From NCBI GenBank assembly GCA_002213445.1, contig NJIE01000008.1:248001-312000 (forward strand): a DNA stretch of 64,000 nucleotides, given 5' to 3'. Position numbers and translations under genes: made by a program. The notes beneath the pieces were generated by a model. It did not search any database. It was not told the DNA's origin and worked only from the letters and a program-made list of their open reading frames with translations. This document shows positions 49,496 through 54,963 of the stretch, piece by piece (positions within the stretch are counted from its first letter, which is position 1; each line of letters opens with the position of its first letter). Origin of the DNA: Xenophilus sp. AP218F (GTDB lineage: Bacteria > Pseudomonadota > Gammaproteobacteria > Burkholderiales > Chromobacteriaceae).

Positions 49496-49535
49496 AAACC
49501 CTTGCCATCTAAAATAGATGGCAAGGGTTTTTTTT
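49496..49535 (+). terminator. valS terminator overlapping the next gene's ribosome site
   Basis: AAACCCTTGCCATCTA (49496-49511) pairs perfectly over 16 bp with TAGATGGCAAGGGTTT (49515-49530), with an AAA loop. The T-run 49528-49535 follows. The right arm holds AAGGG, the only ribosome-site-like sequence of the next gene, and its ATG (49536) directly follows the T-run. Confidence 0.9.
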
Positions 49536-51230
49536 ATGAAAATTGAAGCTTCTGATAAAGAAATCCAAGATATTTTGAAGCTTGGTTATTTTAAGATTCC
49601 GAGATTTCAAAGGCCGTATTCATGGGGGAAAGAGGAGGTTGTCAGATTTTGGGATGATATTGTTGGTGATGAGAATGATAATTATTTTATAGGGTCGATG
49701 GTTGTTTATCAGGAGCGTCGACCTTATTTTGGAATCGTCGATGGGCAGCAAAGACTTACTACAATAACTATTGTTTTGGCAGTAATAAGAGATTTTTTTA
49801 AAAAGCTTGGCGAAGATGATCTTGCTATTGGAGTGCAGAATTTTATAGAGCGGGCTAATGTTGATAATAGGAAGGAATATATAGTCGATTCCGAAACCTC
49901 ATTTCCATTCTTTCAGGGGGTGATACAAAGTTTTTCGCGCGGAATTGGGTTTGATGTTGTTGGCGTAGAAGAGAAAAATTTAGAAGATGCATATAATTGC
50001 ATTCGAGATTGTTTGTCAAGAAGGGTGTCGCTGGATACGCTAACGGAGCAGTTTGGTCTTTTTAACTCCATTGATGGAATTGAGGAGGTTAAGAGAATTA
50101 GAGATAAGTTTCTTAGTTTAAAACTTGTATTTATTCAATTGGAAAGCGAGGAAGATGCGTATTTAATATTTGAAACGCTGAATGCCCGTGGGCGTGATTT
50201 GACAACGCCAGATTTGATCAAAAATCTTCTTCTGAAAATTTTAAAACCTGATAATGTTAGATTAGATCGTGCGAAAGAGAGTTGGAATTTAATTGCTACG
50301 AAGTTTCCCTCTGTGGAGGGGCGTGATCTTTTGGGTAATTTTATTTACCATTTCTGGCTTTCTTCCAGGAAGTATATTACGGAAAAGCAGATATTTTCTG
50401 AGGTCAAAGGTAGTGTGAAAAGTGTTGGGGATGCAAATGAGCTAATTCAATCTCTTTCTGCTGATTCTGACTTGTACATAAAAATCATTGAGCCGGATTC
50501 TGTTGATTGGTCTAGGGAGGAGAGCGATTTGTATGATTCAATTTCTTCCTTAAAACTTTTCAATGTCAAGCAACATTTCAGTATGTTGATATCTGTTTTG
50601 CGTGCGAAAGACCGAGGGTTAATATCTCTCCGTTATTTAAAGAAGGTGATTCGTGATATCGAAAACTTCCATTTTGTTTTTAATGCGGTTACATCTCAAA
50701 GATCTTCGGGATCTATAGCAACTCATTATTCAAAATATGCAATTGAGCTGAGTAATGCTGTTGACTCTGGAGCTGCTAATTCTATAATTGAGTCAATGCT
50801 GGTGGGTTTGAGGGAGAAAATACCGAGTTTTGAGGAGTTTTATGTTAATCTAAAGGGGTTTAATTATCATTCGAAAGCGACAAAAGATAAGGCGGTCATT
50901 AGGTACTGCCTATCAAAAGCTTTGGGTGGTGTTGTAAATGGATGTGCTGTTGATTTTTCTGGCATGACGATAGAGCATATTTTGCCGGAGAGCAGAAAAG
51001 GTTCTGGTGTTTCGGAGAAGATATATGGGAATATTGGTAATTTGATTCTGATTGATGCAAAAACAAATTCCGATGAATTAAAAGATTATGATTTTTCAAG
51101 GAAGATTGAAATATTGCGTGAAAAAAATTACCCTCTTGATGATGTGATTGAAAATGCAACATCTTGGGGCGAGGGTGAAATTGAAAGGCGCTGTAAATAT
51201 TTGGCAGAAAAAATTTATCCCAAAATATAA
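49536..51230 (+). CDS. DUF262-DUF1524 protein, GmrSD-like type IV restriction candidate
   Basis: 564 aa. The N-terminal DUF262/ParB-like domain has IPRFQRPYSW (residues 21-30) and DGQQRLTT (69-76), the nucleotide-hydrolysis motif of GmrS. The C-terminal DUF1524 (GmrD) His-Me-finger-type nuclease has IEHILPE (near 479-485), then GNIGNLILID and TNSDELKDYDFSRK. The fused GmrS-GmrD architecture occurs in type IV enzymes that cut DNA with modified cytosines, so phage defence is likely by family. The gene is visibly AT-rich against the GC-rich neighbours, which indicates horizontal acquisition. The start ATG 49536 is preferred over 49518, since 49518 lies inside the valS terminator. No partner gene follows. 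Confidence 0.85.
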   Translation: MKIEASDKEIQDILKLGYFKIPRFQRPYSWGKEEVVRFWDDIVGDENDNYFIGSMVVYQERRPYFGIVDGQQRLTTITIVLAVIRDFFKKLGEDDLAIGVQNFIERANVDNRKEYIVDSETSFPFFQGVIQSFSRGIGFDVVGVEEKNLEDAYNCIRDCLSRRVSLDTLTEQFGLFNSIDGIEEVKRIRDKFLSLKLVFIQLESEEDAYLIFETLNARGRDLTTPDLIKNLLLKILKPDNVRLDRAKESWNLIATKFPSVEGRDLLGNFIYHFWLSSRKYITEKQIFSEVKGSVKSVGDANELIQSLSADSDLYIKIIEPDSVDWSREESDLYDSISSLKLFNVKQHFSMLISVLRAKDRGLISLRYLKKVIRDIENFHFVFNAVTSQRSSGSIATHYSKYAIELSNAVDSGAANSIIESMLVGLREKIPSFEEFYVNLKGFNYHSKATKDKAVIRYCLSKALGGVVNGCAVDFSGMTIEHILPESRKGSGVSEKIYGNIGNLILIDAKTNSDELKDYDFSRKIEILREKNYPLDDVIENATSWGEGEIERRCKYLAEKIYPKI

Positions 51231-51600: not shown

Positions 51601-51756
51601 AGTGCTGGCGTTGATGACCTTTTTGTATCGCACATCTTGATAATGGAGTGATTGCGTCCCGGGGCGGCACCGCCAAATGCGTGCCCGAAATACCGGGGCA
51701 TCCGTTCAATGCGGCGCATTATGCTTTTGGCCTCGTCGTTGAGTCGGGATTCAACC

Positions 51757-52259
51757 ATGCCAAATTATCGGCGCATGCGTGTGGCGGGCGGGACGTATTT
51801 TTTTACCGTCACGCTGCTGGAACGCGGATCGTGGCTGCTGGTGGAGCATATCGACGCCTTGCGCGAGGCGGCGCGTCAAACGCTGCGCGAGCGGCCCTTT
51901 CATATCGATGGCTGGGGGTGTTGCCGGATCACTTTCATTGCCTGATTACACTCCCGCCAGGCGATTCTGATTTTTCCAACCGCATCAAGGCCATCAAGGT
52001 CCGCTTTGTCCGTCGGCTCGCAGCCAGCGAATTTCGCAATGCCGCCCGCGCGAAAAAAGGCGAGCAGGGAGTCTGGCCGCGGCGCTTCTGGGAACACTTC
52101 ATTCGCGACGACGCCGATTTTGCTCGCCATCTGGATGACATTCATCGCAATCCGCTCAAGCACGGGTTGGTTGCGGATGTGGCGGGAATGTACCCCGCCG
52201 CTTGGCGCGGCCAGGCTGAAAGCCTGCCGCAGGCGATGGCATGTCGATCAAGCTCCTGA
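51757..52259 (+). pseudogene. REP-associated tyrosine transposase (RAYT), frameshifted
   Basis: Two frames together give one Y1-transposase-like protein. Frame 1 from ATG 51757 reads MPNYRRMRVAGGTYFFTVTL, typical of RAYT. A one-base loss in the G-run at 51913-51919 (GCTGGGGGTG where GGCTGGGTGGTG is expected) moves the reading into the next frame, which continues LPDHFHCLITLP and ends at 52259. The HFH metal motif is intact. In the HLDDIHRNPLKHGLV segment the catalytic Tyr of the family (usual DYIH.NPVKHG) is Asp, so the protein is probably inactive even if the shift is corrected. REP-like palindromes lie just upstream, as expected for RAYT loci. A sequencing error could explain the frameshift but not the Tyr change. 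Confidence 0.85.
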
Positions 52260-52408
52260 AAAAGTAAGCCAGGTGCGCTTGCAGGCTGCCACGGCAGACT
52301 GCGGTCTCTTGCCGCTGTGGGCCTCTTTGCCAGATACGGAAGCAGGAGGCTCCATTGCCATGATAATGGCGCCGGAATCTGGATCGGCTTGTTTTCGATC
52401 GCCAAATG

Positions 52409-52443
52409 AAAAAGGAGGCTGAAATTGATTCAGCTTCCTTTTT
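52409..52443. terminator. Bidirectional terminator of the triple-RidA gene
   Basis: AAAAAGGAGGCTGAA (52409-52423) pairs with TTCAGCTTCCTTTTT (52429-52443), with one G-T wobble, around ATTGA. It lies 69 bp past the stop of the minus-strand gene at 52513, and would also stop plus-strand reading. Confidence 0.85.
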
Positions 52444-52512
52444 GATTGCCGGAAGCGGCTGCGCCTTTCCGTCAATATCGGCAAGCCAGTACGGCTTGCC
52501 GGTTACGGCGTT

Positions 52513-53784
52513 TTACGCCTTGCGCGGGGTGCCTTCCGCGTGGGAAACCACGGCGTCGATTTGAATCAGGGCGTCGCCGGGCAAAGCGGATACGCCTACG
52601 ATTCTGCGCGCCGGCTGGTAGCTGGGGAAGAATGCGGCGAAAACTTCGTCCACGGCGGCGATGTCATCGATGTTTTTCAGGAAGACATTCACCTTGACCA
52701 CATCGTTCATCGCGTGATTGATGCTTTCCACGATGGACTGGATGTGCTTCAGGCACTGGCCGGCTTGCTCTTTCACGCCGCCAGCCACGATCTGGCCGGT
52801 TTTGACGTCCAGCGGCAATTGGGCGGAAAGGTGGTTGTAGTGGGAGAAGGCAACCGTCTGCGTGGAGAGCGGGTTTTGCGGCGCGCGGTCGGTGTTGTTG
52901 GCCTTGATGACGATGCCGTGGCGGTCTTCAACGGCTTGCGGCGGCGTGCCGTCGCCATGGGAAACCACGGCTTCGATTTGCACCAGCGCGCCAAGCGGCA
53001 GGCCGGCGGCGGCGATCACCGTGCGGGCCGGGAAGTAAGCGACGGCGCGGGCGATGGCCGAATCGGGGAAGAAGGTGGTGTACACCTCGTTTACCGCTTC
53101 CGCGTCCGCGAAATTCTTGAGGAAGATGTTGATTTTGACGATGTCGTCAAAAGGAACGTCGATGCTCTCCAGAATGGCCTTGATGTTTTTCAGGCACTGC
53201 CTGGCCTGTTCTTTCACGCCGCCGGCCACCAGTTTGCCGGATGCCGGGTCGATGGGCAGCTGGGCGGAGAGGTTGTTGTAGTGGGAGAAGGCCACGGTCT
53301 GGGTGGACAGCGGGCTGGTGGGCGCGTTCTTGGTGTCCTTTGCGATCTTGATCAGATCGCCGGCTTGCGGTGCGTTGGGGATGGTGCCTTCGCCGTTGGA
53401 GATCAGGGCTTCCACTTGCACCAGCGCGTTCATCGGCAAGGCGGCCACGGCGACGGTGGTCAGCGCGGGCACGTAGCCGCGGAAGAAGCTGGCGTATACC
53501 TGATTGACGGCGTCGATGTCGGCGATGTCTTTGAGGAAGATGGTGATGCGGACCACGTCGTCCATGACGTGGTTGATGCTTTCAATCACGGCCTTGATGT
53601 TTTTGAAGCACTGTTCCGCTTGCTCTTTTACGCCGCCGGCGACCAGTTTCCCGGATTTAGGATCAACCGGCAATTGCGCCGAAAGATTATTGTAATGCGA
53701 GAAAGCCACGGTTTGTGAATAAGGGCCGATGCCTTGCGGGGCATTTTCCGTATTTCTTGCCAATACTGCGTTGTAGCCACTCAT
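52513..53784 (-). CDS. Triple RidA/YjgF-domain protein (single-chain trimer)
   Basis: 423 aa made of three RidA domains in tandem: residues 1-135, 142-280 and 288-423. RidA proteins usually are about 130-residue homotrimers that deaminate reactive enamine/imine intermediates. The repeats share TQTVAFSHYN, LSAQLP and KLVAGGVKEQA. The active-site residues differ: domain 1 keeps Tyr22 (GPYSQ) and Glu125 but has Leu108 where RidA has Arg; domain 2 has Arg254 (FPARTV) and Glu271 but lacks the Tyr; domain 3 has Arg393 (PARRIV) and Asp410. The ATG at 53784 follows AAGGTGAG. No signal peptide is seen, so it is cytoplasmic. Neighbours give no pathway link. Confidence 0.92.
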   Translation of the reverse strand: MSGYNAVLARNTENAPQGIGPYSQTVAFSHYNNLSAQLPVDPKSGKLVAGGVKEQAEQCFKNIKAVIESINHVMDDVVRITIFLKDIADIDAVNQVYASFFRGYVPALTTVAVAALPMNALVQVEALISNGEGTIPNAPQAGDLIKIAKDTKNAPTSPLSTQTVAFSHYNNLSAQLPIDPASGKLVAGGVKEQARQCLKNIKAILESIDVPFDDIVKINIFLKNFADAEAVNEVYTTFFPDSAIARAVAYFPARTVIAAAGLPLGALVQIEAVVSHGDGTPPQAVEDRHGIVIKANNTDRAPQNPLSTQTVAFSHYNHLSAQLPLDVKTGQIVAGGVKEQAGQCLKHIQSIVESINHAMNDVVKVNVFLKNIDDIAAVDEVFAAFFPSYQPARRIVGVSALPGDALIQIDAVVSHAEGTPRKA

Positions 53785-54382
53785 AATAATCTCACCTTTA
53801 TCTGTTGGGATTGCGGTTTGCGCGCACGGCAAATCCGCGATTGACAGTTTTAACGGTTCTCGAGGCGCGAGCGTTGATTTCGTGCCGGAACAGGCATGGT
53901 AAATGTCTGACGGAAGGCTACTGCATGGCTCAGACGCAAGTCAATATAACGAATCACCAGAAAATCCGGCTTTTTGCAGGAATATGATTCAAGTCAATAG
54001 CGGGAGGTTTTCGGTTTTTTTGACCTGGTGATATGACAAAAATATATCCGCTGACTGCAAGATTTTACCGGGCTTTTTGAGGATAAACGGCAGCCTGAAA
54101 ATATCAAGTTATTAAAATGCGCCGTTTTCAAGATACTCATTTTTCATGAGCGGCGCGGCGAAACTCAATAATATCAATAGCGAGATATTCTATTTCGAAC
54201 CCCAGGCCGACTTGCCAATGGTATTAACTTTGCGGCTAAGGAAGCGGCGGCCTGGAATGGCCGTTGCGGCGGCGGAAGAGGGCATGCCATTAACAAGGCG
54301 GGAGGGCGGTTCTGACCGACATAAATGCCGTGTGGCGGGCATGCGGGCCAGGGGCGGCGTTTGAGCCGCCCCGGCCTGCGCG
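53785..54382. other. Intergenic region without a clear gene
   Basis: 598 bp with AT-rich patches (53990-54200). The only candidate is a 20-codon open frame at 53925-53987 with GGAAGG seven bases upstream, too short to call. An in-frame open region 54146-54364 lacks a ribosome site and family resemblance. A GC stem (54351-54372) lies at the end, 11 bp before the stop of the minus-strand gene. Confidence 0.6.
54351..54372 (-). terminator. GC stem-loop after the exported unknown
   Basis: GGGGCGGC (54351-54358) pairs with GCCGCCCC (54365-54372) around a 6-nt loop. There is no T-tract on the minus strand, so terminator function is only possible. Confidence 0.35.
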
Positions 54383-54814
54383 TCAAGGATGCCGGTGCGG
54401 CGGCAGCGCGGGCAGCATGTGCATGGGAATGGCCTGCTGTTGCCCGGTTTGGCGGTCGCGCATCCAGTTTGGCGCCAGCGGCGACGCGGGCATGCCGGCT
54501 TTGGGGATGTAGGGCGTTTGCGGCGACAGCGGCAGCGTGGCGCCGATGCCTATGTTGTCCGGCTGGGCGGGGCTGCCGATAGAGCCGTTGGCGCGATAGG
54601 CGCGTATGGCGTTTTCCCAGGGGGGATCCAGATCGCCCAGTTCAACCTTGGGCGGCACCTTTAGCGGCTGGCGCTGCTCCGGGGGCTGAAATGGTTGAGG
54701 CGGCCGTATTGGCGCGCGTTCGGGTTTCAACGCGAAATCGTAGGAAGGGAGCGGGGCGGATGCCCAGGACGCGGAAGCAAGCGCCAAGGGCAGAGAGAAG
54801 ATAAGTGCGCGCAT
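54383..54814 (-). CDS. Small exported proline-rich protein of unknown function
   Basis: 143 aa. An N-terminal signal peptide (MRALIFSLPLALASASWASA) predicts export. The mature part is Pro-rich (PIRPPQPFQPPEQRQPLKV) and then DPPWENAIRAYRANGSIG, ending MLPALPPHRHP. It has no cysteine for lipidation and no membrane helix after the signal. No family is recognised. The upstream region carries a 16-bp inverted repeat (54926-54941) in the position of an operator. Confidence 0.65.
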   Translation of the reverse strand: MRALIFSLPLALASASWASAPLPSYDFALKPERAPIRPPQPFQPPEQRQPLKVPPKVELGDLDPPWENAIRAYRANGSIGSPAQPDNIGIGATLPLSPQTPYIPKAGMPASPLAPNWMRDRQTGQQQAIPMHMLPALPPHRHP

Positions 54815-54925
54815 GATGATTCCTGCCAGAATCGGCTCGTGTGGCCTGGTGTTGCGGAAAAAGCGTGGCTGGCGCGTCCTGTTGTCGGACGCGTGGCTGG
54901 CGATAAGGCGCGATGGCCTTCGAAT

Positions 54926-54941
54926 GTTAGAGTATTCTAAC
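54926..54941 (-). promoter_or_regulatory. Possible operator upstream of the exported unknown
   Basis: GTTAGAGTATTCTAAC is a perfect 6-bp inverted repeat with a 4-bp spacer. It lies 112 bp before the start of the minus-strand gene at 54814. The size and AT character fit a dimeric repressor site. No regulator is identified. Confidence 0.4.
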
Positions 54942-54963
54942 TAACATCGCCTGGCAGGGCAAT

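Follow-up and report, generated by a model that had tools for sequence, protein, structure and literature searches.

Introduction

Proteins of the RidA type, such as RidA, TdcF and YabJ, are homotrimers whose ligand clefts are shared between subunits. The pocket of TdcF is formed by Tyr17, Gly31, Asn56, Asn88, Arg105, Pro114 and Glu120 (PMC1884159), with Arg105 and Glu120 supplied by adjacent subunits (PMC1884159, PMC4960622). Thus, in AtRidA, E180 (Glu120) belongs to the subunit neighbouring that of R165 (Arg105), and both S80, beside the Tyr17 equivalent, and S92 (Ser30) bond to the neighbour's S162 and R165 backbone (PMC4960622). By adjacency, Gly31 and Tyr17 should lie on the same face as Glu and Ser, opposite the subunit that supplies the Arg. 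This Arg is nearly essential (AtRidA R165A keeps 2.2%), Glu and Tyr being less so (PMC4960622). Within the C-terminal IEIEA stretch of RidA, the first Glu is the ligand-contacting Glu120 and the second is Glu122 (AtRidA E182, Staphylococcus aureus YabJ Glu118), an intersubunit salt-bridge residue. A fused form, presumed to be a covalently linked trimer unit, was named 3x-RidA by Niehaus et al. in 2015, with EF_0115 of Enterococcus faecalis V583 as the example (PMC4433059). Among open-licence full texts, that paper is the only one in which the name 3x-RidA was found, in two sentences, and this account of the fused form holds no site analysis. Here we examine a 3x-RidA gene in a window of 64,000 nt from Xenophilus sp. 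AP218F (contig NJIE01000008.1, positions 248,001 to 312,000). Its product is a new member of a real, widespread and already named family, one that holds residues that plain RidA lacks more firmly than RidA's own catalytic Arg.

Results

The 423-aa open reading frame (ORF) is matched in three stretches by PF01042 of Pfam (258.5 bits, E 9.4e-78) and in three stretches, too, by TIGR00004. A previous reading of this DNA from its letters and ORFs, which we call the sequence-only reading, had proposed three RidA domains in one chain, and this is borne out, on the minus strand. The residues that it singled out (Tyr22, Leu108, Glu125, Arg254, Arg393 and Asp410) are all present, and the Tyr is missing from domains 2 and 3. 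Conservation was counted over 106 distinct 3x-RidA triples (identical proteins once), a set that leans to close relatives, the GTDB scan having provided the best 80 of 560 stretches; L078 and L086 were dropped because they held no frame passing the length and motif filter. For comparison we used 49 monomers, that is, those of 63 candidate loci with a frame matching domain 1 at E 1e-8. The register of Glu120 was set by alignment to 2dyy and to these monomers, and residue roles were also drawn from PMC5979572, PMC6435465 and PMC7311433, and for RutC from PMC8113886.

Where RidA reads IEIEA, the last strands of domains 1, 2 and 3 end in VQVEA, VQIEA and IQIDA. Glu125 and Asp410 align with Glu122 and not with Glu120, so that the salt-bridge residues are kept and the candidacy of these two as catalytic glutamates was rejected by the register of the 49 monomers. 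The Glu120 equivalent is Gln in every domain; this position is occupied by Glu in 45 and Ala in 4 of the monomers, and by Glu in 0/106 triples, whichever the domain. At the Gly31 position, Ala was found in 106, 106 and 103 of the 106 triples (domains 1, 2 and 3), including all three domains of the window protein, versus Gly in 49/49 monomers. The Tyr17 equivalent is seen in 0/106 for domain 2 (at 159/160) and 11/106 for domain 3 (at either of 306/307). Compared with the RidA-subfamily pocket, then, the window protein has the Arg105 equivalent (Arg254 and Arg393, with Leu108 in domain 1) and lacks the Tyr17/Gly31/Glu120 set. Because of Ala for Gly31, Gln for Glu120 and a Tyr in domain 1 only, we consider it RidA-derived and not a canonical RidA.

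Arg is kept at at least two of the three Arg105 sites in 106/106 triples. The joint states of domains 1, 2 and 3 were RRR in 57, LRR in 38, RLR in 4 and KRR in 3 proteins, with RVR, RMR, RQR and RRC once each. On a 99-row tree (quick method) the LRR state, present in 34 rows, takes two changes, and all LRR rows belong to Pseudomonadota, as judged from their names or their closeness to the window genome; loss of the domain 2 Arg takes six changes, three of them forced by starred branches. Judged from these sequences, Leu108 is a derived state. It was rejected as a feature of the family, with Leu in 38/106 homologs only.

Two AlphaFold models, with predicted template modelling scores (pTM) of 0.71 and 0.78, support a trimer-like ring within one chain through their predicted packing, and match single-chain chorismatases along the whole chain. 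A search of a PDB copy by sequence returned no solved 3x structure. The idea that the trimer is encoded in one chain, advanced by the sequence-only reading and in print since 2015 (PMC4433059), is supported by these predicted models, in which no failure of the domains to pack as a trimer is seen. Other parts of the sequence-only reading need correction. It took Glu125 and Asp410 for the active-site glutamate and its substitute, a role that falls to the Gln positions. It also counted a full residue set within each domain, which is wrong bookkeeping for clefts that are composite across subunits (PMC1884159, PMC4960622); consequently its unequal clefts stand and its list of losses per domain does not. 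Since RidA clefts span two subunits, Leu108 and Tyr22 are never in one cleft. Homologs with a complete site in every domain, which would speak against unequal sites, exist as regards Arg (the 57 RRR proteins) and not as regards a Glu at the Glu120 position. In either ring direction the other face of the Leu108 cleft would come from domain 2 or 3, both without Tyr, and hence the Tyr22 cleft would meet Arg254 or Arg393. By comparison with chorismatase active-site residues, we lean to Arg393.

The explanation we favour, to which we give an even chance, is a 3x-RidA pseudo-trimer that would hydrolyse imino, enamino or keto acids at its Arg clefts and would have lost the third cleft in this lineage. 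According to it, three ligand clefts would lie between neighbouring domains, as in RidA trimers; in each, one domain would supply the Arg that binds the carboxylate, and the following domain the Tyr17/Ser30/Gly31/Glu120 face. One cleft would contain Tyr22 and an Arg, another an Arg without Tyr, and the one with Leu108 neither, and all three would carry Gln for Glu120 and Ala for Gly31. A small imino, enamino or keto acid would be bound through its carboxylate in the two Arg clefts, which would speed its hydrolysis by solvent water, as in RidA variants without Tyr or Glu that still have the Arg. The Leu108 cleft would be idle, having dropped out in this lineage.

The triples also share motifs that are absent from the 49 monomers, that is, a Ser-His-Tyr-Asn stretch in each domain and a Gly-Thr tail past each last strand (Table 1). 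In addition, the insertion found in domain 2 alone includes Arg246 in 104/106 triples (2 gaps) and is followed by Tyr250 in 106/106, while His72 (domain 1) and His357 (domain 3), both 106/106, are matched in domain 2 by Val210 in 104/106. On the strength of this insertion and of His72 and His357 versus Val210, the clefts appear unequal across the sampled family and not just in the window lineage.

A possibility that we place well below the pseudo-trimer with Arg clefts, and that is nevertheless the rival deserving most attention because the residues fixed by selection are not RidA's own pocket, is that function was relocated. The fusion would have freed the protein from threefold symmetry, the old clefts would be partly vestigial, and a polar set specific to 3x-RidA would do the conserved work, with Ser-His-Tyr-Asn lying close to one barrel pole, beside the Ser-x-x-Glu/Asp-Gly-Thr tail that the adjacent domain provides. 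In cyanuric acid hydrolase, similarly, the active site has shifted to the central barrel. Consistent with this, Ser, His, Tyr, Asn, Gln and Gly-Thr are found in 106/106 triples in three domains, unlike in the monomers, and the Arg105 equivalents vary. Moreover, Lys122 and Asn23 of adjacent S. aureus YabJ subunits interact (PMC6435465) and map by alignment to residues 129 and 29, and AtzD is likely to come from concatenated YjgF-type units with a repurposed central barrel (PMC3758960). However, every triple keeps Arg at two or more sites, invariant polar residues at domain junctions may just hold linkers, and the Ser-His-Tyr-Asn stretches show low values in the predicted local distance difference test (pLDDT).

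Alternatively, Ser-His-Tyr-Asn and Glu-Gly-Thr could be a structural latch that locks neighbouring domains, the clefts keeping plain RidA activity and the fusion just stabilising it. A motif repeated in all three domains, the C-terminal one included, is what a ring-closing contact would produce, and the kept salt-bridge residues agree with it. Nonetheless, we judge this distinctly improbable: a plain RidA would retain Gly31 and Glu120, as 49/49 and 45/49 monomers do, in place of the Ala and Gln seen here, and with an ordinary RidA in the same genomes the duplicate needs another reason.

Table 1. Features of the 3x-RidA locus in the window (counts refer to the 106 triples)
Feature	Position in window	Strand	Basis
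3x-RidA coding sequence, ATG at 53784 (423 aa + stop)	52513..53784	-	
RidA domain 1 (residues 7-132 as cut here)	53389..53766	-	PF01042 stretches; tree cut
RidA domain 2 (residues 145-278 as cut here)	52951..53352	-	Pfam; tree cut
RidA domain 3 (residues 291-417 as cut here)	52534..52914	-	Pfam; tree cut
Tyr22, RidA Tyr17 equivalent (Tyr in domain 1 of 86/106)	53719..53721	-	alignment
Ser-His-Tyr-Asn, domain 1 (residues 29-32), 106/106	53689..53700	-	
Leu108, RidA Arg105 equivalent (Arg 65, Leu 38, Lys 3)	53461..53463	-	alignment
Gln123, RidA Glu120 equivalent (Gln in 106/106)	53416..53418	-	alignment
Glu-Gly-Thr past last strand of domain 1 (132-134; Glu 103, Gly and Thr 106)	53383..53391	-	
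Ser-His-Tyr-Asn, domain 2 (residues 167-170), 106/106	53275..53286	-	
8-residue insertion, domain 2 only, before Arg254 strand (residues 242-249)	53038..53061	-	alignment
Arg254, RidA Arg105 equivalent (Arg in 99/106)	53023..53025	-	alignment
Gln269, RidA Glu120 equivalent (Gln in 106/106)	52978..52980	-	alignment
Asp-Gly-Thr past last strand of domain 2 (278-280), 106/106	52945..52953	-	
Ser-His-Tyr-Asn, domain 3 (residues 314-317), 106/106	52834..52845	-	
Arg393, RidA Arg105 equivalent (Arg in 105/106)	52606..52608	-	alignment
Gln408, RidA Glu120 equivalent (Gln in 106/106)	52561..52563	-	alignment
Glu-Gly-Thr past last strand of domain 3 (417-419), 106/106	52528..52536	-	
Likely ribosome binding site AAAGGTGAG	53791..53799	-	sequence, before ATG
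About 0.6 kb without assigned gene, upstream of 3x-RidA, includes leader	53785..54382	-	

The origin of the fusion was examined with a tree built from the 75 domains of 25 triples plus 26 monomers. All triple domains fell on one side of a branch from the monomers (support 100/100). The third domains lay on one side of a branch (100/93), as did the first (86/30, weak support in the Shimodaira-Hasegawa-like approximate likelihood ratio test), and the second were not resolved as one group; overall, the domains of triples grouped by position, not by species. This topology suggests a single triplication of one RidA domain that preceded the spread of the family. An ancestor with one domain and the motif was rejected as far as the search went (299 Bacillota genomes, E 1e-35); single matches of the single-domain profile occurred in 2 further Bacillota genomes (130 and 124 bits, frames of 129-130 aa).

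The full-length protein is encoded in 28 of 61 genomes searched within the taxonomic family, that of the window included, the other 27 copies being 65-84% identical, and for this reason the architecture is far beyond chance. Across the phylum it was found in 7/398 genomes (own included). In Bacillota, the single-domain profile at E 1e-35 gave a triple match in one long frame in 9/299 genomes (∼230-264 bits), one of the 9 being the genome picked as search centre. The plasmid collection yielded 13 matching records at E 1e-20, 12 of them with at least 80% coverage and 10 from Vibrio, and an E. faecalis plasmid record encodes a homolog with 67% identity at 99% coverage of the query. From this identity and the grouping of domains by position, the window gene is orthologous to EF_0115-type proteins and not an independent fusion, EF_0115 itself standing outside the comparison. 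The best 80 of 560 stretches in the GTDB scan came from Pseudomonadota, Bacillota, Bacteroidota and one metagenome-assembled genome of Actinomycetota. Identity to the window protein is 61-84% across the family. The values near 80% between members of different phyla, taken with a patchy distribution, point to horizontal transfer. A monomer search of viral contigs revealed no relative. In the viral fold library BFVD, 6 proteins matched at an E value of 0.001 or better: four Pandoravirus proteins annotated as YjgF family (183-387 aa), one Cedratvirus YjgF/L-PSP-type protein and one unnamed; the match of the 387-aa Pandoravirus protein spans the triple model, but its TM-score is poor (0.29).

A stand-alone RidA-type gene was present in 12/12 of the 3x genomes tested. 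The source genome (3.98 Mb; 3x-RidA at G000:C20:300516-301784) encodes a stand-alone RidA (C3), 48% identical to residues 12-128 of 3x-RidA, and one further RidA-type domain (C28). Because an ordinary RidA is also encoded, the substrate of 3x-RidA is probably not 2-aminoacrylate.

Regarding gene context, 3x-RidA stands mostly alone, with median gaps of 452 bp upstream and 242 bp downstream over 74 loci with both neighbours (simple frame caller); a same-strand gene within 100 bp occurred upstream in 1/74 and downstream in 3/74. A context telling of a pathway was rejected, as the largest neighbour cluster covered 10 loci at varying positions (the cluster of 3x-RidA itself, 81 loci) and the next, of groEL-type genes, 9. 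In a Pfam tally of 96 neighbour proteins, picked by hand from 126 listed, the commonest family matched 5. Two single cases stand apart. On the Vibrio parahaemolyticus plasmid pHLC (L039), a diverged 3x-RidA (61% identical) comes directly after genes whose annotations are permease, agmatine deiminase and ornithine carbamoyltransferase, and a carbamate kinase gene is close by; this setting agrees with the carbamoyl-phosphate link reported for RidA genes (PMC4433059). In an E. faecalis record, 3x-RidA lies near ornithine cyclodeaminase and a pyridoxal phosphate enzyme.

Five loci share a divergent neighbour gene whose cluster representative reads like a MerR-type regulator; such genes stand at -1 on the minus strand (∼273 aa) in L061:6974-7792, L067:6942-7760, L085:6964-7779 and L091:6893-7726. 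The upstream regions of L053, L061, L065, L085 and L091 contain TTGACAT/TTGACTT...AGTC(C/A)AAGGTTTAT, which resembles a MerR-type promoter. A non-catalytic carboxylate sensor or chaperone-like protein would fit these neighbours, MerR and GyrI-like families having 4 matches each among the 96 neighbour proteins, and such roles are reported for some Rid proteins (PMC4284807). Nothing family-specific supports such a role, however, and with two or more catalytic-type Arg kept we regard it as very unlikely.

Homologs from Pseudomonadota have in common a leader, ∼45-100 nt ahead of the start codon, in which an inverted repeat, GTGGCAA ... TTGCCAC, flanks a conserved core (window 53785-53919; L069:4827-4961, L118:7866-8000, L041:7866-8000 and others), the window copy being degenerate. 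This repeat may be an RNA stem or an operator. RNAalifold found no structure in the leader, and the named stem was 76.4% paired, a suggestive value that 62 of 500 shuffles also reached. A known regulatory RNA was rejected, with no Rfam match at 52200-54960; in 8 other loci Rfam matched one L21 leader only. An 8-mer enriched upstream in 24/86 loci was discarded as a regulatory element, being mostly the ribosome binding site of Bacillota members.

Regarding the window itself, an alternative TTG start farther upstream of the ATG would give a protein of 439 aa. On the opposite strand, a GmrSD-type restriction gene (49518-51230; PF03235 and PF07510) lies in an AT-rich island (G+C ∼0.37 versus ∼0.63 in the preceding valS) and was probably acquired. 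The frame at 51648-52259 (+), between this gene and 3x-RidA, presumably resembles a relative of REP (repetitive extragenic palindromic)-associated transposases; the frame tested had no Pfam match at 1e-5.

Discussion

In broad terms, 3x-RidA is most likely a protein with unequal clefts that depends on its Arg residues to hydrolyse imines or enamines, or that binds carboxylates. Several observations weigh against the more specific pseudo-trimer with working Arg clefts. Gly31, invariant in 49/49 monomers, is Ala in 3x-RidA, and the authors of the TdcF study argued that any side chain at Gly31 would clash with Glu120 (PMC1884159); by this argument, Ala together with Gln may indicate that the chemistry differs. 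Conservation peaks at Ser-His-Tyr-Asn (106/106, all three domains), not at Arg. Five AlphaFold models of the window protein had pLDDT from 68.5 down to 35.3, with the low values at Ser-His-Tyr-Asn already mentioned, and gene neighbourhoods point to no pathway. As for the single triplication, the bootstrap of the domain tree was unsettled, with few columns, and the tree program flagged the long branches of the monomers where they attach to that of the triples; this join may be false.

The same observations allow a bolder proposal, that of a neofunctionalised enzyme, which we think unlikely. In such an enzyme, fusion would have broken the symmetry, the lineage-variable cleft would be in the course of being discarded, and three copies of a new polar site would do the conserved chemistry, in each of which one domain's Ser-His-Tyr-Asn would face the Gly-Thr tail of the following domain, along with the Gln/Ala pair. 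If so, 3x-RidA would join chorismatase and cyanuric acid hydrolase as a case in which the concatenation of YjgF-type units led to a new function. If, on the other hand, the pseudo-trimer is right and the clefts truly differ, a single chain lets each of them be mutated alone, which is impossible in a homotrimer, and the roles of Tyr17, Gly31 and Glu120 in RidA become directly testable.

Beyond the 2015 account, our analysis adds the replacement of Glu120 by Gln in all domains and of Gly31 by Ala in nearly all of them, the signatures Ser-His-Tyr-Asn and Gly-Thr, the Arg states, the probable single triplication and the lone-gene setting.

Among single-chain relatives, chorismatases (4bps, 5ag3, 5a3k) are 12-15% identical to the 3x-RidA models and were not among the hits when the PDB was searched with a sequence profile at E 0.01. 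We take 5a3k and 5ag3 to be Hyg5, and if this is so the position of Glu334 would fall on Gln408, as read from the ends of the aligned ranges, assuming no gap in the last strand. Hyg5 requires Glu334, and in Nat-hyg5 replacement of Glu by Gln at the matching residue abolished product formation (PMC7170507). Cyanuric acid hydrolase and barbiturase (Toblerone fold; 6buo, 6dhj, 6bup) are more distant, at ∼5 Å root-mean-square deviation and 10% identity to the model. Cyanuric acid hydrolase and FBXO22 were among the listed matches of the second model only, and cyanuric acid hydrolase was not among the best 50 for the window protein's own model; each of its units has four strands, and its barrel contains three Ser-Lys dyads and a metal site (PMC3758960). 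With the RidA, TdcF and YabJ homotrimers, 3x-RidA shares the fold and mostly Arg105, Ser30, Pro114 and Asn56. It differs from them in being one chain instead of three, in having Ala for Gly31, Gln for Glu120 and often Asp for Asn88, in a Tyr17 confined mainly to domain 1, and in carrying the extra tail motif and the domain 2 insertion.
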